Of a stretch of DNA of 64,000 nt, positions 28,920-40,063 are shown in pieces. Source of the DNA: Demequina flava (GTDB taxonomy: Bacteria > Actinomycetota > Actinomycetes > Actinomycetales > Demequinaceae). Position 1 is the stretch's first letter; each line of letters starts with the position of its first letter. A program made the translations under genes and the position numbers. The stretch covers positions 248,001 through 312,000 of the forward strand of contig NZ_BBRA01000002.1 of assembly GCF_000975035.1 (NCBI RefSeq), read 5' to 3'. The notes under the pieces were generated by a model that had not been told where the DNA came from, searched no databases, and saw only the letters and a list, made by a program, of their open reading frames with translations.

Positions 28920-28992
28920 GCGGACGTAGCTCAGCTGGTAGAGCATCACCTTGCCAAGGTGAGGGTCGCGGGTTCGAATCCCGTCGTCCGCT
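28920..28992 (+). tRNA. tRNA-Gly (anticodon GCC), copy 1
   Basis: 73 nucleotides, no encoded CCA. Acceptor stem GCGGACG/CGTCCGC, anticodon stem TCACC/GGTGA with loop TTGCCAA, T-arm CGGGTTCGAATCCCG. First gene of a Gly-Cys-Val cassette. Confidence 0.97.
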
Positions 28993-29025
28993 CGTAGGTT
29001 CGTAGCCGGATTTTTCGGCGACCAC

Positions 29026-29096
29026 GGTGGGTTGGCCGAGAGGCGAGGCAGCGGCCTGCAAAGCCGTATACACGGGTTCGAATCCCGTACCCACCT
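29026..29096 (+). tRNA. tRNA-Cys (anticodon GCA), copy 1
   Basis: 71 nucleotides, no encoded CCA. Acceptor stem GGTGGGT/ACCCACC, anticodon loop CTGCAAA in the stem CGGC/GCCG, T-arm CGGGTTCGAATCCCG. One base separates it from the following tRNA-Val. Confidence 0.96.
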
Positions 29097-29097
29097 C

Positions 29098-29172
29098 GGG
29101 CGATTGGCGCAGCGGTAGCGCGCTTCCCTGACACGGAAGAGGTCACTGGTTCGATCCCAGTATCGCCCACCA
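29098..29172 (+). tRNA. tRNA-Val (anticodon GAC), copy 1
   Basis: 75 nucleotides with encoded CCA. Acceptor stem GGGCGAT/ATCGCCC, anticodon stem CTTCC/GGAAG with loop CTGACAC. Closely related to the tRNA-Val(CAC) gene on the minus strand. Confidence 0.97.
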
Positions 29173-29175
29173 GAC

Positions 29176-29203
29176 AAGCCGCCCCCTCGGGGGCGGCTTT
29201 TTT
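29176..29203 (+). terminator. Terminator of the first tRNA cassette
   Basis: AAGCCGCCCCC pairs with GGGGGCGGCTT around a TC loop, followed by a T-run. A classic intrinsic terminator four bases after tRNA-Val. Confidence 0.92.
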
Positions 29204-29215
29204 GTGCGCTAGCGT

Positions 29216-29455
29216 GTGCGCGTGCAGGCTGCAATTGAGAGCACGGCGCCAAGCGCCTGGGATGTGTGGGGCGGCGTCTTCGTCGTCATCGCTCTGATCA
29301 CGACCGTCCTGGCTGTCGTTTCTATCGTTCGACACCGTGGCGACCTCAGTACGCGCGTGACAACGGTCTGGCTCATCATCACTGTCATCTTCCCGCCGCT
29401 GGGCGTAATCGCCTGGTTCGTGGCCGGAAGGCGTGCCGCGCAAGACAAGAACTAG
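29216..29455 (+). CDS. Small membrane protein, PLDc_N-like
   Basis: 79 residues with two membrane helices (about 18-37 and 49-69) and a short basic C-terminus. The second helix region (TTVWLIITVIFPPLGVIAWFVAGRR) matches the phospholipase D N-terminal-like (PLDc_N) pattern of Trp, Pro-Leu-Gly and Gly-Arg. Such short proteins have no known enzymatic activity. GTG starts at 29216 and 29222 are both possible. A ribosome site is not evident because the region overlaps the tail of the preceding terminator. It is enclosed by the two tRNA cassettes. Confidence 0.72.
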   Translation: MRVQAAIESTAPSAWDVWGGVFVVIALITTVLAVVSIVRHRGDLSTRVTTVWLIITVIFPPLGVIAWFVAGRRAAQDKN

Positions 29456-29504
29456 CAGCCGGGCCCCTGCGCGCGCCTCGAGCGACGACTCGCGGGACCG
29501 AGTG

Positions 29505-29535
29505 GTGACCGGATGCCTCCCGAATCCGCTATAGT
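29505..29535 (+). promoter_or_regulatory. Candidate promoter of the second tRNA cassette
   Basis: A good -10 hexamer TATAGT at 29530-29535 lies 34 bases before tRNA-Gly; GTGACC at 29505-29510 is the best -35 candidate but at a long spacing of 19. Unrelated in sequence to the promoter of the first cassette. Confidence 0.42.
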
Positions 29536-29568
29536 TTTCTTCGGCCCGGAAACAGTCTTCCGGATCAT

Positions 29569-29641
29569 GCGGACGTAGCTCAGCTGGTAGAGCATCACCT
29601 TGCCAAGGTGAGGGTCGCGGGTTCGAATCCCGTCGTCCGCT
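29569..29641 (+). tRNA. tRNA-Gly (anticodon GCC), copy 2
   Basis: Identical over its 73 nucleotides to the copy at 28920. First gene of the second Gly-Cys-Val cassette. Confidence 0.97.
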
Positions 29642-29674
29642 CGCATTACAACGTCGGCTTTGCCGACACCATAC

Positions 29675-29745
29675 GGTGGGTTGGCCGAGAGGCGAGGCAG
29701 CGGCCTGCAAAGCCGTATACACGGGTTCGAATCCCGTACCCACCT
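29675..29745 (+). tRNA. tRNA-Cys (anticodon GCA), copy 2
   Basis: Identical over its 71 nucleotides to the copy at 29026. The spacer before it differs from that of the first cassette and carries its own small inverted repeat (GTCGGC, TT, TGCCGAC). Confidence 0.97.
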
Positions 29746-29750
29746 CGCAT

Positions 29751-29825
29751 GGGCGATTGGCGCAGCGGTAGCGCGCTTCCCTGACACGGAAGAGGTCACT
29801 GGTTCGATCCCAGTATCGCCCACCA
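29751..29825 (+). tRNA. tRNA-Val (anticodon GAC), copy 2
   Basis: Identical over 75 nucleotides, including CCA, to the copy at 29098. Confidence 0.97.
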
Positions 29826-29828
29826 GAC

Positions 29829-29857
29829 AAGCCGCCCCCCTCGGGGGCGGCTTCTTT
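29829..29857 (+). terminator. Terminator of the second tRNA cassette
   Basis: AAGCCGCCCCC and GGGGGCGGCTT around a CTC loop, followed by CTTTC. Nearly the same as the first cassette's terminator but with one more C in the loop and an interrupted T-run. Confidence 0.9.
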
Positions 29858-29901
29858 CGTTGTGGAGTACGTGCAAGGCCCGATGCGACAGGATGGCACG
29901 T

Positions 29902-30519
29902 ATGTCCCTCCAGATTGCGGTGGGGTGGCGACGCACCTCGCTCACTCCCCCGCCGCCAGCGTCACTGGCCCGTGACCTCGCGGTGAGCACGGCAGCCCAG
30001 CTTCTTGGCGTGGACCCACAGACCTTGCGGCTGTCTCATCACTGCGAGCACTGTGGAAGCGCCGAGCACGGCACGCCTGTCGTGATCGGTGGGGGTTCGG
30101 TGAGCGTGTCACTCTCCCGGGCTGAGGGCTACGCGGTCGCGGTCGCGACACGGGCGGAACGGCCCCTCGGGGTGGACATTGAAAGCGAGTCAGCCGCGCC
30201 GCGCGCTGAACTCAGCGCCACGGCGATGCTGTCAGCCCAAGAACGTGCCGCGTCCAAGCACAGCCCTCCGGAGTCTTTGCTTCGCACATGGGTCCAAAAA
30301 GAAGCATTGCTCAAGGCCTGCGGCGAAGGGTTACGTTATCCGCTCGAGTCCGTCACGATCCGTGGCGACAGTGTCGTATCTGGTCCCCCGGCTACCCACG
30401 GGAAGTGGAACCTGGCGCCGCTTCTCATCGAAGGCGCAGTCGCCTATGTGGCCTACACCGCTCGGTGGCACGAAAGGCTCGTACTCCGGGTCGACGAGTC
30501 ACCGCAGGATGGCTGCTAG
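29902..30519 (+). CDS. 4'-phosphopantetheinyl transferase, Sfp type
   Basis: Predicted to transfer phosphopantetheine from CoA to a carrier-protein serine. 205 residues. The Sfp-type motifs are visible: LGVDIES (magnesium-binding Asp and Glu) and LLRTWVQKEALLKACGEGL (W-X3-KEA-X3-K). The N-terminal His region (LRLSHHCEHCGSAEHGTP) fits the Sfp subgroup rather than AcpS. Start at ATG 29902 is favoured by AGG nine bases upstream; ATG 29893 is possible. It is convergent with the M1 peptidase and lies close to the Pls-type synthetase, whose carrier domain is the obvious substrate. Confidence 0.88.
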   Translation: MSLQIAVGWRRTSLTPPPPASLARDLAVSTAAQLLGVDPQTLRLSHHCEHCGSAEHGTPVVIGGGSVSVSLSRAEGYAVAVATRAERPLGVDIESESAAPRAELSATAMLSAQERAASKHSPPESLLRTWVQKEALLKACGEGLRYPLESVTIRGDSVVSGPPATHGKWNLAPLLIEGAVAYVAYTARWHERLVLRVDESPQDGC

Positions 30520-31826
30520 GCGACTGGAAGGTCCGGCAGTTCTGGCTTCCCAATCCAGGCAGTGAAAAAGTCGCCCAGGGAACGCGCTGCCCCGGACTCT
30601 GCCCGCGTGATGAACCCAGCGGTGTCCACAGAACCGTGGCGATGCCGCAGCGTCCACTCACGCAGCAAATCGAAGAATGCGCTGTCGCCAATCTCCAGCC
30701 TTAGCGCGTGAAGGGTAATTGCTCCGCGTTTGTAGAGGCGATCATCAAACATCGCATCCGGGCCAGGGTCCTGGACCACGAGTTCCTGAGGGAGTGCGCT
30801 CAGGCGTGCGTGGGCGGCCCGCGCCTTGGTATCGGCGGAGTCGGCTCCGGATTCCTCGGACCACAGCCACTCGGCGTAACAGGCAAAACCCTCATGGAGC
30901 CAAATGTCTTGCCAGCGCCGCAACGTGAGGGAATTACCGAACCACTGATGTGCAAGTTCGTGAGCGATCAGACGTTCCTCGACATGCATTCCATCGACGT
31001 GGTTCTCACCAAAGATGGACAGGCCTTGGGCCTCCAAAGGAATCTCAAGGGAGTCTTCTGCGACCACGACCGTGTAGGAGTCGAAGGGGTACGGCCCAAA
31101 AAGGTCTTCGAACAACGCAAGCATCCGCGGTTGCTCCGCAAAGTCAGCCTTTGCGCGCGACCTGAGGGCTGGCGGCGCCACGACGCGTTGTGCGACGGGC
31201 TTCGACGACAGTGACCATTCCTCATAGCGCCCAATCTGCACGGTCGCGAGATACGTGGCCATCGGGGCTTCATGCTCGTAGACCCAACGAGTCCGGCCCG
31301 CTTTGACCTTGCGTTCCACGAGCGAACCGTTACATACAGCCCGGTACGGACTCTCGGTCGACACGGCTATGCGGAACGTCGCCTTGTCGCTGGGGTGATC
31401 GTGACACGGGAACCACGACGGCGCGCCATCGGGCTGCCCCGCCACCAGGGCACCTTCGGTCAACTCTTCCCAGCCGACGTCGCCCCAAGGCCCCATCAAT
31501 GGGCCCGGGGTGCCTTGATAGTCGACGTCGACCGCAAACACGGTCCCAGTCTCGAAATCGTCGTGAAGGCGCACACTCAGGACATCGCCACGGTGCACCC
31601 ACTTCGCAGGCTTGCGCCCGTTCACCGTGACTCGTGTCACTTTGAGGCCCGCGAGGCGAAGGTCAATGCGGTCGATACGTTCTGTCGCAGTCCCGTGCAC
31701 TGTTGCGTGGGCGTCAAGCCGATTGGTGGCGACACGGTATTCCAGGTCCAACTCGTAGCGGGACACGGAAATGTGAGGGTCCGGGCGTCCTGGCAGATAA
31801 GGATCCTCGGGTGGGCGTCGTAGCAT
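30516..31826 (-). CDS. M1-family zinc metallopeptidase coupled to the Pls-type synthetase
   Basis: 436 residues with no signal peptide, expected in the cytoplasm. The zinc site HELAHQWFGN (His, Glu and His about residues 289-293) and the third ligand Glu in WLHEGFACYAEW (about 312) are intact. The substrate-recognition segment reads PLEAQGLS in place of GAMEN, as in the actinobacterial LETQ-type branch. It is short for M1, lacking the large C-terminal helical domain. Its ATG overlaps the synthetase stop (TGATG), so both come from one transcript. Aminopeptidases are known to degrade epsilon-poly-lysine in producing Streptomyces; self-protection or trimming is inferred here, not shown. Confidence 0.9.
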   Translation of the reverse strand: MLRRPPEDPYLPGRPDPHISVSRYELDLEYRVATNRLDAHATVHGTATERIDRIDLRLAGLKVTRVTVNGRKPAKWVHRGDVLSVRLHDDFETGTVFAVDVDYQGTPGPLMGPWGDVGWEELTEGALVAGQPDGAPSWFPCHDHPSDKATFRIAVSTESPYRAVCNGSLVERKVKAGRTRWVYEHEAPMATYLATVQIGRYEEWSLSSKPVAQRVVAPPALRSRAKADFAEQPRMLALFEDLFGPYPFDSYTVVVAEDSLEIPLEAQGLSIFGENHVDGMHVEERLIAHELAHQWFGNSLTLRRWQDIWLHEGFACYAEWLWSEESGADSADTKARAAHARLSALPQELVVQDPGPDAMFDDRLYKRGAITLHALRLEIGDSAFFDLLREWTLRHRHGSVDTAGFITRAESGAARSLGDFFTAWIGKPELPDLPVA

Positions 31827-34800
31827 CACTCGCTCACCGGAGCCACGGGATTGCCCTGCCACCGCGTTCCCGAAGGAATCGCGTCACCTCGCAGGACCAA
31901 CGACGCTGGCCCCACGGAAGCGTCTGGACCGATGCTCGCAGCGGGAAGAATCACGCCGTGCGGGCCGAGCGTCGCCCCAGCTGCGAGAGTCACCGTGTCG
32001 ATACTCATGACGCGATCGTGGAACAAGTGAGTCTGCACTACACAACCGCGGTTCACTGTTGAACCATCACCGAGCGAGACAAGGTCTGCCTCAGGTAGCC
32101 AGTACGACTCACACCACACTCCTCGTCCGATTCGTGCGCCGAGCGCACGCAACCATAGGTTCAGCACCGGCGATCCGTCGGTTGCCGGTCCGAGCCAGGG
32201 TACGGCTACTTTCTCGACGAAGGTATCTGCGAGTTCATTTCGCCAGATGAACGAACTCCACAACGGATGGTCGCCAGAGCGTATACGCCCGACCAAGGCC
32301 CATTTGGCTGCAACGGCGATAAGCGCGCCGGCGACAGCCGCCCCGAGGACGACGAGCCCGCTCACCAGGAATGCCAACGCTATTCCGTGGGTCTCGACGA
32401 GCGCAAGCAAGGTGAGCATGACGGCGGTACCCAAGGTGAATGACAGCATCTCGGGCACCACGCGGCACACCTCGACGAGCGCGCGTGCGACACGCAGCTT
32501 TGTGGGAGGCGAGTACGCCCGCTCCTTGTCCGCTTTGACGTTCACGCGACGCAGCTTCTCGGGCGGGGAACCGATCCACGACGTCCCCTTCTTCGCCTTG
32601 TTCGCCTTGCGAGGCGTTGCCGACAGCACGGCAACCAGGCCTCCCTTGGGCACTGACCTACCAGGAGCGATCATGCCCGAGTTGCCGAGGAAGGCCTTGC
32701 GGCCAATACGTGCCTTCTCGACACGCATCCACCCGCGGCCCAGTTCATATGATCCGATCAAGGTGTCGTCTGCAAGGAACGCACCGCGGCCCACGCGCGT
32801 CATGCGCGGCAGCATCAGCACAGTGGACGCCTCGACGTCCTTGCCGATGCGTGCGCCAAGTGAACGCAGCCACCAGGGCGTGGCACTCGAGGCGTAGAGG
32901 CCATAGAGCCGCGTGCGCGCCTCGTCCATCAGCCGCAACGTGGCCCAGATTTGCCAACCCTTGCGCGATCGCACCGGGTAATACCCAGCGCGCATGCCGA
33001 TCGATGTCAGGCGCACCCCAACCCAAATCACGATGGCCAGGACCGCCAAGTACGCGAGCGCTCCCACGGGCGCCCACAGCAACGCGTCAGGTGCGGCTTC
33101 ACCGAGTGTCGTGTCGTGCGCCGTTGCCGACGCGACAACTGTGAGCCCAGCGACCGCCGCCACCACCGGCAATGCCCCCAGAGCGGCCGCGCTTGCGCCG
33201 TAAATGGCCACCCAGCGCCGGCCTCGAGGGGCGCGCTTCCTGGGCCACGGCACTCGTGCCGGCCCCACGAACTTTGCTGGCGACCCAGCCCACAGTTCAC
33301 CCGGCGGGATGGAGCCGCTTACTGCGGTACCCGCGGCGATCTCCGCGCCCTGACCAACGCGTGAACCAGGACCGAGCGTCGATCTGGTGCCGACGGTGGC
33401 CTTCTTATCCACCCTCACGCGTCCTACGACGAACGTGTCGCCATCGAGCCAGTGACCAGCCAAGTCGACCTCAGGCTCAATGGCGCAACCCGCGCCCAGC
33501 GTCAACATCCCCGTCACAGGAGGAAGCGAATGCAGATCGATTCCTGCGCCCACCTTCGCTCCCAATGCGCGTGCGTATGTCACCGTCCACGGTGCACAGC
33601 TGAGGTTTCCCACGCCGGCAGCATCGGCCCAGCTCTCCACGAACCACACCTTGAGGTGCGTCGCTCCCCCACGTCGATAGTGACCAGGCCGGATCCCGCG
33701 AAGCAACGTCCGCGCCACGAGGACCGTCGACCCCATGCGTCCAAGCGGACTGATGCACACGACCCATCCGATAAGGCCCCAGAGCCATGCGCCAGGGACG
33801 GTGGGCACCCAGGAAAGGAGGTCGAGACTCTCCACGATCGCGACTGTCAGCAGGATCCAGGTGAGCCACCGAAGACCCACCCAGGTCGCAAGCACAAGCC
33901 CCGCAAGAGTCTGCAGTACTTGAGCCGAGACCGGTGTGGGAGCGATCGACGCCGTCTCGCGCTCTTCACGTGGGTCTAGTTCCGACAGTCGCGCGGCCAG
34001 GTCAGCGAGCCGTGGATAGTCGTAAAGGTCCGCAACCGCGACCGTGGGGTAGCGCTCGCGCAAAGCGGACACCAGCTGCGCCGCGGTGAGGCTACCGCCG
34101 CCGGAGTCGAAGAAGTCCTCGTCTGGACCCTGCACAGGGGCACCGAGCGCGGCGGTCCAGTGAACCGCGATCCAGTACTCCAAGTCGGAGAGGTTGCCGG
34201 ATGGGCCCTCGTCATCGACGGATTGCTCTAGCGGCCACGGCAAGGCGTCACGATCAACCTTGCCGGATCCGCGCGTCGGTATCTCCGGAACCACGGCAAG
34301 CTGCGGAATTAACGCTGCGGGCAGTCGTTCGCGAAGCAGCCGCCGTGCCTCGGCCACGTCCACTGTGCCTGACCCTGTGGGCGCGAGATAGCCGATCAGT
34401 ACAGCGGCTCCACCACTGGTGCGCCGTACTGCCGCCGCCGCCATCGCGACATCCGGCACTTCCAGGAGGGCGGCATCCACCTCACCCAACTCGATCCGCC
34501 TGCCGCCAATCTTGACCTGGTCATCGGCCCTGCCCAAGAAGACGAGTCCTCCAGGGTCTTCACGAACAAGGTCGCCGCTGCGGTAGGCGCGCTCCCAGCC
34601 CAACGCGGGAGCAGGGGCGTACTTTTCAGCGTCCTTGGCGGGATCCAGGTAGCGAGCGAGGCCCACTCCCCCAATCATGAGTTCGCCAGCTTCACCGGGC
34701 ACGACACGTTCCCCAGAAGGATTGACGACGGCGAGGTCCCAACCGTCCAGCGGCAATCCAATCCGGACCTCGCTCACGCCATCCATCAACGAAGCGCAGG

Positions 34801-35728
34801 CCACCACGGTCGCTTCGGTGGGTCCGTAGGTGTTCCACACCTCCCGACCGTCGGCAACCAAGCGGGCTGCGAGTTCAGGCGGAACCGCCTCTCCGCCGAA
34901 GATCAACAAGCGGATGCGTTCCAACTGTTCAGGCTGGAGCAGCCCAGCCAGTGTGGGGACGGTGGAGATGACGGTGATCTCCTGGTACACGAGCCACGGG
35001 CCTAAGTCCATACCCGTCCGCACGAGCGCCCGCGGGGCCGGAACCAGACAAGCGCCGTAGCGCCACGCGAGCCACATCTCTTCGCACGAGGCATCGAAGG
35101 CCACGGAGAGACCCGCCAGCACCCTGTCGCCGGGTCCCAACGGCGCTTCGGTCAAAAAGATCCGTGCCTCCGCGTCGACAAATGCGGCGGCAGAGCGTTG
35201 AGAAACTGCCACGCCCTTGGGTGTGCCTGTGGAGCCCGACGTGAAGATGATCCACGCTCCGTCGTCGAGGCTCGGGCGCGGAACCGGAGCCTGCCCAGAA
35301 GGCTCCACCCCCAGGTCGCCATCAGACAGAACGAGTGCGACGCCCGCCTCGTCGAACACGGTGCGCGCACGTTCTTCGGGGTCGTCGACATCAACCGGGA
35401 CGTAGGACGCACCCGCTGCCATCACGGCGAGCACGGCGGCGTACAGCTCCACCGTTCCTGACGAGATCCGCACGCCCACACAGTCGCCCGGCGTCACGCC
35501 CCTACTTCTAAGGTTCGTGGCGGCGGCGTCGATCATGATCCCGAGTTCCGCGTAGGTCACGGAGGCCTGGCCGTCATCGATGGCGGGCGCATCTGGGTGG
35601 GTGGCAACAGTCTCGTCGAAGATGTCGAGAAGGGTCCGCGGCGACGCGGCGTATGAGGAGCGCAGGAGGGCGTCGGCAGGGGTCACGGTCGCGATCGTCG
35701 CAGGCTGAGGTGTCGGAAGGGTGAACAT
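31826..35728 (-). CDS. Pls/PosA-type single-module NRPS (epsilon-poly-lysine synthetase-like)
   Basis: 1300 residues in the layout of epsilon-poly-L-lysine synthetase. An adenylation domain (about 30-500) has IIFTSGSTGTPKG, NTYGPTEATV, YRSGDLV and GRADDQVKIGGRRIELGEVD. A carrier domain (about 510-585) has the pantetheine Ser at about 546 in DSGGGSLTA. Membrane helices follow, with three tandem left-handed beta-helix-like C-terminal domains (about 720-825, 945-1060, 1195-1300) separated by further helices. There is no condensation or thioesterase domain of the usual kind. By-eye specificity residues are D212, A213, E216, S255, I276, G278, T300, V308, V309 and K490, close to the lysine code I recall. 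Its stop overlaps the M1 peptidase start; divergent from treY. The product is inferred. Confidence 0.9.
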   Translation of the reverse strand: MFTLPTPQPATIATVTPADALLRSSYAASPRTLLDIFDETVATHPDAPAIDDGQASVTYAELGIMIDAAATNLRSRGVTPGDCVGVRISSGTVELYAAVLAVMAAGASYVPVDVDDPEERARTVFDEAGVALVLSDGDLGVEPSGQAPVPRPSLDDGAWIIFTSGSTGTPKGVAVSQRSAAAFVDAEARIFLTEAPLGPGDRVLAGLSVAFDASCEEMWLAWRYGACLVPAPRALVRTGMDLGPWLVYQEITVISTVPTLAGLLQPEQLERIRLLIFGGEAVPPELAARLVADGREVWNTYGPTEATVVACASLMDGVSEVRIGLPLDGWDLAVVNPSGERVVPGEAGELMIGGVGLARYLDPAKDAEKYAPAPALGWERAYRSGDLVREDPGGLVFLGRADDQVKIGGRRIELGEVDAALLEVPDVAMAAAAVRRTSGGAAVLIGYLAPTGSGTVDVAEARRLLRERLPAALIPQLAVVPEIPTRGSGKVDRDALPWPLEQSVDDEGPSGNLSDLEYWIAVHWTAALGAPVQGPDEDFFDSGGGSLTAAQLVSALRERYPTVAVADLYDYPRLADLAARLSELDPREERETASIAPTPVSAQVLQTLAGLVLATWVGLRWLTWILLTVAIVESLDLLSWVPTVPGAWLWGLIGWVVCISPLGRMGSTVLVARTLLRGIRPGHYRRGGATHLKVWFVESWADAAGVGNLSCAPWTVTYARALGAKVGAGIDLHSLPPVTGMLTLGAGCAIEPEVDLAGHWLDGDTFVVGRVRVDKKATVGTRSTLGPGSRVGQGAEIAAGTAVSGSIPPGELWAGSPAKFVGPARVPWPRKRAPRGRRWVAIYGASAAALGALPVVAAVAGLTVVASATAHDTTLGEAAPDALLWAPVGALAYLAVLAIVIWVGVRLTSIGMRAGYYPVRSRKGWQIWATLRLMDEARTRLYGLYASSATPWWLRSLGARIGKDVEASTVLMLPRMTRVGRGAFLADDTLIGSYELGRGWMRVEKARIGRKAFLGNSGMIAPGRSVPKGGLVAVLSATPRKANKAKKGTSWIGSPPEKLRRVNVKADKERAYSPPTKLRVARALVEVCRVVPEMLSFTLGTAVMLTLLALVETHGIALAFLVSGLVVLGAAVAGALIAVAAKWALVGRIRSGDHPLWSSFIWRNELADTFVEKVAVPWLGPATDGSPVLNLWLRALGARIGRGVWCESYWLPEADLVSLGDGSTVNRGCVVQTHLFHDRVMSIDTVTLAAGATLGPHGVILPAASIGPDASVGPASLVLRGDAIPSGTRWQGNPVAPVSE

Positions 35729-35810
35729 CAGGTGTCAAGGCCCACGTAACACTGCTGACACTCCCATCTGAGATGATGTGAACGTACGCGACGAAGGGCA
35801 CTTGAGCTAG

Positions 35811-38327
35811 ATGTCAGAGACGAACCACGACCGCACGCACCGCCTTGGCCACCGCGCCGACGCACCCGTGCCGACCTCGACCTACCGACTACAACTCAAC
35901 GCTGATTTCACATTCGCCGATGCTGCAGAGCACCTGGACTACTACGCCTCCTTGGGCGTCACTCACCTGTATCTGTCGCCAATTCTGGAAGCGGCACCCG
36001 GGTCCACCCATTTTTACGATGTTGTCGACCACTCGCGCATTGCTGGCGCGCTAGGCGGCGTCGATGGACTGCGAGACCTGGCGTGGAAAGCGGGCGAACA
36101 CAACATCGGGCTCGTGGCCGATGTTGTTCCCAATCACATGTCTGTGCCCACCCCCGCCTATCACAACAAAGCGTTGTGGTCGCTGTTGCGCGACGGCGAG
36201 GACTCCGACCATGCGCACTGGTTCGACGTGGACTGGTCAGGCGGCGATCCGGTCCTGATGCCCGTCCTGGGTCAGCGCATCGGCACCGTCCTCGCCAATG
36301 GCGAACTCTCCATTGACTCGATGGTGATCCCCGGCTTTGAGGATGAGGGCGAAGTCCCCGTCCTCAAGTACTACGACCACGTCTTTCCCATTCGCCCCGG
36401 CACCGAGAATCTGCCGATGGCGTCGCTAGTCGACCAGCAGCACTACCGCCTGGCCTACTGGCGAGTAGCGAACGAGGAGCTGAATTACCGACGCTTCTTT
36501 GACGTGGGCTCTCTCGTGGCCGTCCGCGTTGAAGACCCGGATGTTTTCGAGGCGACTCACCGCGTGATCGTGGACCTGATCAAGGACGACACCCTCCAGG
36601 GCCTACGCATCGACCACCCGGATGGCCTCGCGGACCCCGCCGGCTACATCCAGCGACTGGCGGACGCCACCAACGGCGCATGGATCGTCGTCGAGAAGAT
36701 TCTCGAGGACGAAGAACGGCTGCCCACGAGTTGGCGCACGGCCGGCACTACCGGCTACGACGGCGCGTGGCGCGTGGGCGCGTTGTTGCGCGACCCCGCG
36801 GGCTCTTCTCCCCTGGCGGCGACCCTGCACCGCGTGACTGGCGACGCGATGGGCATGTTGCCGGCGATGATCAACGACGCCAAGCGGGAGATCGTCAAAG
36901 ACTCGCTGTCGAGCGAAGTGCACCGCCTGGCGACCATTGCGCACACCATCTGCACCACAGACGTCCGCCTTCGCGACCACACCTGGCGGTCGCTCTACGA
37001 CTGCCTGCGGACCCTGCTGATCACGTTTGACCGCTACCGCGCCTACGTGGTTGCTGGCACGCAGCCCAAGCCACCTTCACTCGAGGCCATTGAACAGGCG
37101 TCGGCACGGGCACGGACACTTCTTGATGAGGAGCGTCACGAGACACTCGACGTCGTAGTCGACCTGCTCCAGGGTGCCGAGGTGGGCTCTGCAGGCCGTA
37201 CCAATGACGCGAACCGTCGCGAACTCATCACTCGCTTCCAGCAGGCGTGTGGCGCCGTCATGGCGAAGGGAATCGAGGACACGGCCTACTACCGCTGGAC
37301 CCACCTGCTCCCGCTGTGTGAAGTGGGCTCGCCCGCGTCACGCTTCGCAATGCCGCCCGCGGCCTTCCACGCGTGGGCCGACGAGCAGCAGATGCAGTAC
37401 CCACATGGCATGACGTGCCTGAGTACCCACGACACCAAGCGCTCGGAAGACGTCCGGGCACGACTAGGGGTGCTGAGCGAGGCCGCGGATAAGTGGGACG
37501 TCCTGGTCACGAAGCTGCAGCACGCGACCGAGCAGATGCGGCCCGCCCTTCTTGATGGGCGCACCGAGAACCTCTGGTGGCAGACGCTGGTCGGCACCAG
37601 CGATGAGAACGAGTTCATGGATTGGGATCGCCTCGAGGGTTATCTCCTCAAGGCGATGCGTGAGGCCAAGACCCACACGACCTGGACGTCAGTGGACGAG
37701 GACTACGAGTCCGCCGTGTTGTGGTTCGCCCAGTCCACCCATGCAGACCATGCGGTTCGTACGCTCGTCCACGACTGGCACGTTGAGGCTGCCGCCGGCG
37801 TGAGGGCGCACGTGCTGTCGATGAAGCTCATCCAGTTGACTATGCCTGGCGTTCCCGATGTGTATCAGGGCACCGAAGCGCTCGCGCCTTCGCTCGTAGA
37901 TCCCGACAACCGGCGGCCGGTTCCGTTCGACGACTTGGCCAGCGACCTTGAACGCCTCGACGCCGGCACCAAGCCGCGCGGCCTCAGCGAGGAGAAACTC
38001 CTCGTGACGAGCCGGGCCCTGCGCGCACGACGCGACAACGCCGAAGCCTTCATTGGCGAAAGCGCCGGCTATCACCCCCTGCCGTCCTCTTCGGGCCACG
38101 CGGTCGTCTTTGCACGCACGGCACATGACAAGGCTCGAGTCATTACTGCGGCAACCCGCCTTGGGCTGGATCTCGACGAACTCGGCGGCTGGCGTGAACA
38201 CACCGTCACACTGCCTGAGGGCCGGTGGCGCGACACCCTGTCGAACCGGAAGTTCGACGGCGGAACTGTCGACCTGTCGGACCTGCTCGGAACGTTGCCG
38301 GTGGCGCTTCTTGTGGAGGACGAATGA
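35811..38327 (+). CDS. treY: Malto-oligosyltrehalose synthase
   Basis: Rearranges the reducing end of a maltodextrin into a trehalose unit, the first step of the TreY-TreZ route. 838-residue GH13 enzyme. Signatures are STYRLQLNADFTFADA, HLYLSPILEAAPGSTHFYDVVD, VADVVPNHMSV, LRIDHPDGLADPAGY (nucleophile Asp) and WIVVEKILEDEERLP (acid Glu), and the C-terminal MTCLSTHDTKRSEDVRARL and PGVPDVYQGTE. Start ATG 35811 has only a weak ribosome site. Overlaps treZ by four bases. No debranching gene treX is next to it, unlike many treXYZ operons. Confidence 0.95.
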   Translation: MSETNHDRTHRLGHRADAPVPTSTYRLQLNADFTFADAAEHLDYYASLGVTHLYLSPILEAAPGSTHFYDVVDHSRIAGALGGVDGLRDLAWKAGEHNIGLVADVVPNHMSVPTPAYHNKALWSLLRDGEDSDHAHWFDVDWSGGDPVLMPVLGQRIGTVLANGELSIDSMVIPGFEDEGEVPVLKYYDHVFPIRPGTENLPMASLVDQQHYRLAYWRVANEELNYRRFFDVGSLVAVRVEDPDVFEATHRVIVDLIKDDTLQGLRIDHPDGLADPAGYIQRLADATNGAWIVVEKILEDEERLPTSWRTAGTTGYDGAWRVGALLRDPAGSSPLAATLHRVTGDAMGMLPAMINDAKREIVKDSLSSEVHRLATIAHTICTTDVRLRDHTWRSLYDCLRTLLITFDRYRAYVVAGTQPKPPSLEAIEQASARARTLLDEERHETLDVVVDLLQGAEVGSAGRTNDANRRELITRFQQACGAVMAKGIEDTAYYRWTHLLPLCEVGSPASRFAMPPAAFHAWADEQQMQYPHGMTCLSTHDTKRSEDVRARLGVLSEAADKWDVLVTKLQHATEQMRPALLDGRTENLWWQTLVGTSDENEFMDWDRLEGYLLKAMREAKTHTTWTSVDEDYESAVLWFAQSTHADHAVRTLVHDWHVEAAAGVRAHVLSMKLIQLTMPGVPDVYQGTEALAPSLVDPDNRRPVPFDDLASDLERLDAGTKPRGLSEEKLLVTSRALRARRDNAEAFIGESAGYHPLPSSSGHAVVFARTAHDKARVITAATRLGLDLDELGGWREHTVTLPEGRWRDTLSNRKFDGGTVDLSDLLGTLPVALLVEDE

Positions 38328-40063
38328 CACAGCACGTGTGGGCGCCGGAAGCCGACTCAGTCGTCGCAGTGGTCGGCCCTCCGGATGCTGACGAACACGA
38401 ACGCTTGGACCTATCCCGGGGCGCTGACGGCTGGTGGGAGGGCCCCCGCCTGCCCCACGGCACGGACTACGCGTACGAGGTTGATGGTGACGGCCCGTGG
38501 CCAGACCCTCGCTCCGCGGCGCAACCGTACGGCGTCCACGGCCCGTCACGGGTCTTTGACCCGTCCCTGTACCGCTGGCGCGACAGCCAGTGGCACGGCG
38601 TCGGTGCGCTTGGCGCAGTGTTCTACGAGATGCACGTAGGCACGTTCACACCCCAAGGCACGCTCGATAGCGCGATCGTCCAACTCGAGGACCTCAAGGC
38701 CACCGGCGTCGACATCGTTGAGCTCATGCCGGTCGCTCCGTTCCCCGGACGCCATGGTTGGGGCTACGACGGGGTGTCCCTGTACGGCGTGCACGAGGCC
38801 TACGGGGGCCCCGCAGCGCTCCAACGCTTCGTCGATGCCGCCCACCGTGCCGGGCTTGGCGTCTGCCTCGACGTTGTCTACAACCACTTGGGACCGGACG
38901 GCAACTACCTGTCGAAGTTCGGCCCCTACTTCACCGACGCCCACCACACGCCTTGGGGCTGGGCCGTCAACCTTGATCAGGCTTCCAGCGACGGGATGCG
39001 CCGGTTCATCGTGGACAACGCGCTGCGGTGGTTCAAGGACTTTCACCTCGACTGCCTTCGCCTCGATGCTGTACACGAATTGCAAGACGATTCCGCCGTC
39101 CACATCCTCGCCCAGCTGAGCGACGAGGCGGCCACGCTGGCCAAAGAACTGGGCCGGCCGCTGTCGCTGGTTGCTGAGTCGGACCTCAATGACGCGCGCA
39201 TGGTCACCCCGACCTCTGACGGTGGTCTTGGCATGACGGCCCAGTGGAACGACGACGTGCACCATGCTTTGCACGCCTATCTCACTGGCGAGCGCCATGG
39301 CTACTACGTCGACTTTGGCTCGATCGAGTGCCTCGACAAGGTCTACCGCGAGGTGTTCTGGCACAACGGCACGTTCTCCCCGTTCCGCGACAAGACGTGG
39401 GGCGCCCCGGTTCCGTCAGACATGGACCGCCAGCGCTTTGTGGTGTGCGCCTCCAACCACGACCAGGTCGGCAACCGTGCAATCGGCGACCGCCCGTCGA
39501 ATCGCCTCAGCGCAGGCGCACAGGCCACATCCCTGGCCGCGGTGCTGCTGTCACCATTCACGCCCATGCTCTTCCAAGGCGAGGAGTACGGCGAGGAGCG
39601 CCCGTTCATGTTCTTCACCGACCACGATGAGCCGCTGGGTTCCGCAGTCTCTGAGGGACGCATGAGTGAGTTTGGCGGTCACGGGTGGGACGACCTCTAC
39701 GGCGGGAATGTCCGCGTCCCTGATCCCCAAGATCGCACGACCTTCTTGCGCTCAAAACTGGGTTCGGGAATCGGATCAGAGGGTGAGCCGCACGACTCAT
39801 TGCGGCGCTGGGTCGCAGACCTGATGGCGCTTCGAGTTCACGTCTCCGATCGCGCAGCCTGGGAGTCTCACCCCGCCGGAGCCTCCGAGAGTGAACCCCG
39901 CCTGCTCACCTTGCACGGGCCTGTGACGGTGCACGCCAACTTGACCGGAGCATCGGCCGTCATCGAAACCTCTGGCACACTCGTGGGCCACTTCGGCGGC
40001 GTCGAGCCCGGCGATGGTGCGCTCACGCTCGCTCCCGATTCAGTCGCGTTAGTAACGGCGTAG
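38324..40063 (+). CDS. treZ: Malto-oligosyltrehalose trehalohydrolase
   Basis: Cuts free trehalose from the product of TreY. 579 residues. An N-terminal CBM48/E-set region begins HVWAPEADSVVAVV, followed by the GH13 barrel: GRHGWGYDGVSLYGVHEAYG, CLDVVYNHLGPDGNYL, FHLDCLRLDAVHELQDDS (nucleophile Asp), LVAESDLNDARM (acid Glu) and VCASNHDQVGNRAIGDR. ATG 38324 overlaps the treY stop (ATGA). The frame is open further upstream within treY and that extension is rejected. Trehalose production serves osmoprotection and, in actinomycetes, glycolipid supply. Confidence 0.95.
   Translation: MTQHVWAPEADSVVAVVGPPDADEHERLDLSRGADGWWEGPRLPHGTDYAYEVDGDGPWPDPRSAAQPYGVHGPSRVFDPSLYRWRDSQWHGVGALGAVFYEMHVGTFTPQGTLDSAIVQLEDLKATGVDIVELMPVAPFPGRHGWGYDGVSLYGVHEAYGGPAALQRFVDAAHRAGLGVCLDVVYNHLGPDGNYLSKFGPYFTDAHHTPWGWAVNLDQASSDGMRRFIVDNALRWFKDFHLDCLRLDAVHELQDDSAVHILAQLSDEAATLAKELGRPLSLVAESDLNDARMVTPTSDGGLGMTAQWNDDVHHALHAYLTGERHGYYVDFGSIECLDKVYREVFWHNGTFSPFRDKTWGAPVPSDMDRQRFVVCASNHDQVGNRAIGDRPSNRLSAGAQATSLAAVLLSPFTPMLFQGEEYGEERPFMFFTDHDEPLGSAVSEGRMSEFGGHGWDDLYGGNVRVPDPQDRTTFLRSKLGSGIGSEGEPHDSLRRWVADLMALRVHVSDRAAWESHPAGASESEPRLLTLHGPVTVHANLTGASAVIETSGTLVGHFGGVEPGDGALTLAPDSVALVTA

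Follow-up and report, generated by a model that had tools for sequence, protein, structure and literature searches.

Which product, if any, does a synthetase locus of Demequina flava make, and do the genes beside it belong to the same system? The locus occupies positions 29,902 to 35,728 of a 64,000-nucleotide (nt) stretch of contig NZ_BBRA01000002.1 (assembly GCF_000975035.1, positions 248,001 to 312,000 of the forward strand; hereafter the window, to which all coordinates refer). It contains pls, encoding a synthetase of 1300 amino acids (aa), a gene for an M1 zinc metallopeptidase, and a gene for a phosphopantetheinyl transferase (PPTase). A reading made from the letters of the DNA (the sequence-only reading) had proposed that these form a three-gene unit providing synthesis, activation and probably degradation or self-protection for a poly-amino acid. 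From the sequence comparisons set out below, we put the probability that the locus makes epsilon-poly-L-lysine at roughly 85%.

Domain layout and predicted fold of the synthetase

The pls gene (31826..35728, minus strand, as are all its domains) has an ATG start and encodes the protein in which an adenylation (A) domain, a carrier domain, membrane helices and three C-terminal beta-helix domains had been proposed, a layout with which Pfam searches and a predicted structure agree. Pfam places an AMP-binding domain at aa 37-359 and a PP-binding domain at aa 520-581. The whole A domain (aa 16-501, 34226..35683) has as its best PDB match 7wew (608.8 bits, 1.7e-181), an epsilon-poly-L-lysine synthase that we take to be from Streptomyces albulus. 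It is followed by the carrier (thiolation) domain (33986..34171; PF00550, 1.2e-11), with the motif FFDSGGGSL, and by the polymerization region (aa 604-1295, 31844..33919). The latter is covered by TIGR02353, the NCBIfam model of the Pls/PosA family, with 698 bits (E 1.3e-209) against a cut-off of 423.1, which was passed by Corynebacterium glutamicum only among 14 well-known genomes used as a control. Over its whole length the protein is 51% identical (667/1311 alignment columns) to a plasmid-encoded Streptomyces Pls that carries the annotation epsilon-poly-L-lysine synthase. It thus has the A and carrier domains of the Pls class, lacks condensation and thioesterase domains, and ends in three tandem domains with helix pairs.

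An AlphaFold2 model of aa 590-1300, built from 36 aligned sequences, has a mean predicted local distance difference test score of 89.1 and a predicted template modeling (TM) score of 0.90. In this model a helix pair followed by a left-handed beta-helix is repeated three times, giving approximate, model-based limits for the domains C1 (about aa 722-823, 33260..33565), C2 (about aa 957-1059, 32552..32860) and C3 (about aa 1196-1291, 31856..32143). The motif QTHLFHDR in C3 (aa 1232-1239) is unchanged across 12 aligned sequences. As assessed by Foldseek, the top PDB matches of the model are serine and other hexapeptide acetyltransferases, all partial and with low TM-scores (best E 2.6e-6), and a search of a viral library gave no useful match. 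The predicted C-terminal structure of PosA agrees with the model (PMC10522769). Since the alignment with Pls extends through the entire C-terminal region, the assignment to a Pls-type synthetase is borne out, and by these sequence criteria the protein is a full-length member of the Pls/PosA family.

Substrate code and predicted monomer

The substrate code of the A domain reads DAESIGTVVK (aa 212, 213, 216, 255, 276, 278, 300, 308, 309 and 490), its positions being placed by what we take to be GrsA numbering. Because this code equals that of 7wew at all ten positions (10/10, alignment read by eye), lysine is the predicted monomer. The same code is present in 54 of 61 aligned loci, the window included; the others comprise one row without an A domain, two near variants and four codes beginning with DFE.

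The synthetase might instead make another cationic polymer (poly-ornithine, poly-diaminobutyrate or poly-diaminopropionate), as do PosA and the PDAB and PDAP synthetases. All these enzymes have the C-terminal region in common, so TIGR02353 alone leaves the monomer unfixed (PMC10522769). Code position 2, however, is Ala in lysine enzymes, Met in ornithine enzymes such as PosA, and Phe in enzymes for shorter diamino acids such as PDAP and PDAB (PMC10522769), and it is Ala here. In addition, the four DFE-code synthetases are only ∼30-32% identical to the Pls of the window, and their loci have no strong M1 match nearby. We consider a monomer other than lysine very improbable. At a further locus (L284, in genome G502), the A domain contains FDFSVEE, hence not the lysine code, and an M1 open reading frame (ORF) opens ∼0.8 kb downstream.

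An M1 peptidase gene overlaps the end of pls

The M1 gene (30516..31826, minus strand) appears in the mechanical ORF list as 30516-31862 with a GTG start, and encodes 436 aa if the ATG at 31826 is used. It had been said to start inside the pls stop codon, which is literally true: this ATG shares one base with the TGA of pls (gag-tga-tg), an overlap that suggests translational coupling of the two genes. The protein contains both M1 domains (PF01433, 4.5e-27; PF17900, 2.4e-14) and the zinc motif HELAH(X18)E, and is 42% identical to its M1 counterpart encoded next to a Streptomyces pls. It therefore shares with PldII, the peptidase of S. albulus, the M1 fold, the HExxH(X18)E motif and a gene overlapping the end of pls.

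The linkage of the two genes is widespread. We picked 60 loci for diversity from the matches in the 108 Pls-positive genomes among 347 sampled in the order, and 54 of them have a strong M1 match 3' of pls on the same strand, 3.5 kb away in L113. These 54 are the 53 loci that share the exact DAESIGTVVK code with the window, plus one in which the A domain is missing (L109). The six order loci with other codes have no M1 match (L132, L134 and L135; in L134 the contig stops 1.5 kb after pls) or a weak one (L084, L133 and L137; E 2e-15 to 1e-8). Among 80 named loci, chosen by top rank from at least 589 relatives and so not a random draw, M1 adjoins pls in 79; the exception is L184 (Tsukamurella), where its start is 2.1 kb off. 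In a sample of the class, M1 lies beside pls in 11/12 loci of family f37 and 9/9 of family f45. No M1 was found near pls on the fetched plasmid loci of R. opacus (pROB01), Streptantibioticus cattleyicolor, S. viridifaciens and M. intracellulare. Four plasmid loci, L229 (pROB01), L231, L233 and L236, have a full-length pls with no M1 gene next to it; in the last, on the M. intracellulare plasmid, pls is flanked by a cysteine-synthase-like gene and PE/PPE genes.

These counts bear on the alternative that the peptidase is an ordinary aminopeptidase whose substrate has nothing to do with the polymer. Its nearest PDB entry, 6a8z (1.1e-52), is a general M1 zinc metalloprotease, and it carries no export signal, unlike the M1 proteins beside two Streptomyces pls genes. 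Against this stand the one-base overlap with pls, the adjacency in 79/80 named loci, and the finding that epsilon-poly-lysine is degraded by the S. albulus peptidase whose gene has the corresponding place beside pls (PMC8117764; PMC9223678). We regard an unrelated substrate as unlikely, and activity on the polymer as the preferred prediction.

The peptidase has no evident export signal

The M1 protein begins with MLRRPPEDPYLPGRP, directly followed by the catalytic domain, and no twin-arginine or hydrophobic signal was seen ahead of that domain by eye or with a hydropathy window. PldII of S. albulus is described as translationally coupled and external (PMC9223678), a location for which the M1 protein of the window has no corresponding signal. 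On its sequence, we file the enzyme as PldII-like, not as PldII, and predict a cytoplasmic site of action. The degradation or self-protection role given to it in the sequence-only reading is thus kept in part: homology to PldII speaks for it, but without an export signal the enzyme may act on the other side of the membrane from PldII.

The readable M1 N termini of Micrococcales and Mycobacteriales homologues resemble that of the window in lacking an evident signal (by eye; several rows were unreadable, being in the wrong frame or from a distant M1). No signal was seen by eye in the Kitasatospora, Embleya and Nonomuraea loci (L228, L234 and L235), nor in eleven loci of the large-genome family f37. 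Two named Streptomyces plasmid loci, L227 and L232, differ in that their M1 proteins have RRALIRG or RRALLRG just ahead of a short hydrophobic segment. The M1 of L284, beside the synthetase without the lysine code, has a Sec-like start. A hydropathy scan put 2 of 134 N termini above 1.6, both by eye inside the catalytic domain; the scan is weak, its threshold being calculated to miss the twin-arginine-like signal of L227, and N termini were therefore judged by eye. A pls-linked peptidase without an export signal was not found in print; PMC9223678 was the only source searched for mention of signal peptides, and no such mention was found.

Because the pls-overlapping peptidases have no evident signal here, in the readable Micrococcales and Mycobacteriales and in the eleven f37 loci, it is conceivable, though we hold it to be unlikely, that outside the S. 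albulus type most actinobacteria make and turn over epsilon-poly-lysine inside the cell. The two signal-bearing Streptomyces loci contrast with this signal-less set.

A convergent PPTase gene and its co-occurrence with pls

Directly beyond the M1 gene, as the sequence-only reading had it, lies a convergent gene for an Sfp-type PPTase (29902..30519, plus strand, 205 aa; PF01648, 4.9e-11). The protein has an ACPS-superfamily domain with the motifs GVDIE and WVQKEALLK, corresponding to what we take to be the Sfp-type motifs (G)xDxE and WxxKEAxxK. The mechanical ORF begins with a TTG at 29860, but this falls just behind a tRNA array, so the ATG at 29902 is the likely start. The 3' ends of the PPTase and M1 genes overlap by 4 bases. 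Since the PPTase gene is convergent with pls and the M1 gene, it is not in the same operon. Of the three-gene unit, then, the adjacency of the genes stands as described, whereas the PPTase lies outside the operon and is not a fixed part.

The genome contains two PF01648 genes, of which the one beside pls is the only Sfp type, and exactly two PF00550 carrier proteins, an AcpP-like protein and Pls. Judged by these matches, Pls would be the one visible client of the PPTase besides AcpP. In 29 genomes (this one and 28 relatives), at least two PF01648 genes are present in 6/6 Pls-positive and 0/23 Pls-negative genomes; among these six, G027 carries a synthetase of the DFE-code type. In the order sample, a PPTase profile (A2), built from genes located near pls, matched 105/108 Pls-positive and 58/239 Pls-negative genomes (Fisher p 6e-42, the counts and p being uncorrected for kinship). 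The three Pls-positive genomes that it did not match (G095, G184 and G301) have two PF01648 genes each.

The position of the PPTase gene varies. In the 60 order loci it is convergent on the 3' side in 33, divergent on the 5' side in two, on the same strand 3' in two, and not found nearby in 23; in two of the 33 its start lies further off, 3.8 kb behind pls in L078 and 4.8 kb in L113. Among the named loci it is convergent in 15/80, that is 15/18 Micrococcales and 0/62 others (of these 62, L161 ends too early to judge and two have no order name). In the class sample a PPTase gene lies near pls in 2/20 loci, both of f45, and in a further 9 class loci it is convergent in 4 and on the same strand in 1. 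On plasmids it was present in 1/5 loci of a first set (Arthrobacter) and 0/5 of a second. We rejected the notion of a Micrococcales-only trait, the gene being also convergent in f45 (4/9), f54 (1/1) and f38 (1/1) of the class sample. PPTase matches in three Cellulomonas loci (L147, L149 and L151) were likewise discarded, as tblastn had hit an unrelated stretch within a long ORF, and no PPTase emerged from these loci when the profile was run on all six frames. A linkage between PPTase and pls was not found in print in limited searches of the open-licence literature; the mentions of PPTases in the parts of PMC4361855 and PMC11078359 covered concern other matters.

Could this PPTase be a general activating enzyme of the cell, beside pls by chance? 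Such an enzyme would fit the 58/239 Pls-negative order genomes that match the profile, and the 23/60 order loci with no PPTase nearby. It fits poorly with the genus: an Sfp-type enzyme was not seen in 29 Pls-negative congeners (18 examined by PF01648 and 11 more by profile A2, among the matches listed), and the three Pls-positive congeners found have the PPTase 3' of pls, at a distance of 3.8 kb in G118. The genome also has no third PF00550 carrier protein that such an enzyme might serve. Chance adjacency therefore appears improbable to us, and we favor a PPTase that acts on Pls.

Distribution and place in the genus

Pls is present in 108/347 genomes sampled in the order and in 73/296 in the class. 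The related genomes carry M1 and PPTase genes beside the synthetase, as the sequence-only reading requires, though many have no PPTase there. The suggestion that the gene order is a distinct variant did not hold, because the pls-peptidase operon is published for S. albulus (PMC4361855) and C. variabile (PMC8117764), and many Micrococcales have the additional PPTase.

Within the genus, 29 congeners are without Pls (18 examined directly and 11 more among the matches listed), and two Pls-positive congeners, G118 and G265, have pls beside treY, as here. In a tree of Pls proteins the window protein groups with these two, with a Shimodaira-Hasegawa-like approximate likelihood ratio test (SH-aLRT) value of 90, below the mark of 95; the group lies beside Cellulomonas (SH-aLRT 100 for a set of 12), to which the nearest named Pls proteins belong. 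That this genome alone gained pls horizontally was rejected as the simplest reading, since G118 and G265 share the position beside treY and group with it in the tree. Repeated loss of pls in the genus fits better, but the closest treY relatives (G008, G014, G015 and G013) have no pls. Near treY, pabBC and tRNA genes are kept in 6/7 Pls-negative congeners fetched; pabBC was not seen in the fetched stretch of Pls-negative L144 or of Pls-positive G118 (L146). In another genome, G023 (contigs C1 and C14), a full Pls is accompanied by several TIGR02353 matches that are partial and split, and that may be what is left of a second copy in decay.

In the window, treY and treZ of the malto-oligosyltrehalose pathway (35811-40063) adjoin pls divergently, with a gap of 82 bp between the starts of pls and treY (35729..35810), against more than 2 kb in G265 and G118. 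As judged by eye, the G265 spacer contains TetR-regulator-like and Ohr-type-like ORFs, and similar ORFs are found in Pls-negative G014. The congener stretches concerned are L145 15336-17855 and L139 3190-5367. On the PPTase side, a tRNA-Gly-Cys-Val array is present twice in tandem (28920-29172 and 29569-29825); in congeners it is single, double, or has extra Gly and Val genes. A 317-aa ORF antisense to the array (28946-29899, minus strand) matched no NCBIfam model and is probably not a gene.

Proposed function

In the scheme that we propose, the A domain would activate L-lysine, and the carrier domain of Pls would receive its phosphopantetheine arm from the convergently encoded PPTase. The membrane-anchored C1-C2-C3 region would then link lysines into short cationic chains via isopeptide bonds. 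The M1 peptidase, whose translation would be coupled to that of the synthetase, would hydrolyze the polymer and thereby limit damage to the producer, or trim and recycle chains.

Several points weigh against this scheme. The counts that associate PPTase with Pls take no account of phylogeny, and a gene that is convergent, and absent near pls in 23/60 order loci, is not a fixed part of a unit. In G013, a Pls-negative congener, PF00550 matches a second protein weakly, but there is a single PF01648 gene; three others (G008, G014 and G015) have one PF00550 carrier each. No epsilon-poly-lysine was detectable from Corynebacterium variabile under the conditions tried, or from C. glutamicum with its gene (PMC8117764), so the locus described here may likewise be silent. 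The role of the peptidase is unsettled even in S. albulus, because a review states that removal of Pld and PldII altered neither yield nor chain length (PMC8506220), in conflict with a CRISPR interference study that reported longer chains and lysis (PMC9223678).

If the polymer were indeed made and turned over inside the cell, it might be a regulated polycation, either internal or bound to the envelope, a role that would help explain the silent look of such loci, and in many Micrococcales the unit's own PPTase would let it work in cells that, like the present one, are without any other carrier protein of the non-ribosomal peptide or polyketide synthase kind. The comparison of signal-bearing with signal-less peptidases offers a direct route to asking what the polymer is for in non-secreting bacteria. 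As a compact unit with its own activating enzyme, the locus is also a practical candidate for poly-lysine production in simple hosts.

Comparison with known systems

The locus is expected to fall into the non-alpha poly-amino-acid (NAPAA) cluster class (PMC11078359), which is a cluster label and not a mechanism. PosA, the delta-poly-L-ornithine synthetase of Acinetobacter baumannii (PMC10522769), shares the superfamily and the predicted C-terminal fold, but has the code DMEHNGTVSK, uses ornithine and is encoded in a single-gene operon, against DAESIGTVVK and an adjoining M1 gene here. As assessed by tblastn, A. baumannii homologues are 30.5% identical to the Pls of the window.

Much closer are the Pls enzymes of coryneform actinobacteria, including Arthrobacter, Microbacterium, Micrococcus and Brevibacterium (Jiang et al. 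2021, PMC8117764): the enzyme type and the pls-peptidase operon are the same and the bacteria are related. C. variabile Pls is 51% identical to Streptomyces Pls, and its product was proved by heterologous expression in Streptomyces coelicolor, so that among coryneform producers the product is proved for one gene only, in a foreign host (PMC8117764). Pls across these bacteria, the operon and the C. variabile product are therefore already known, but the Results, Discussion and Bioinformatics sections of that paper mention no PPTase beside pls, which is present here.

With Pls and PldII of S. albulus the locus shares the A-T-C1-C2-C3 layout with helix pairs, the lysine code, and an M1 gene overlapping the end of pls. 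In S. albulus, pls and pldII form one operon, and the overlap is 4 nt in strain ZPM (PMC4361855) as against one base here. The Streptomyces plasmid loci L227 and L232 differ from the locus of the window in the twin-arginine-like signal of their M1 proteins, and in having no PPTase within the fetched flanks of 4-7 kb where the window has a convergent one. The locus itself is one further example of a known system.

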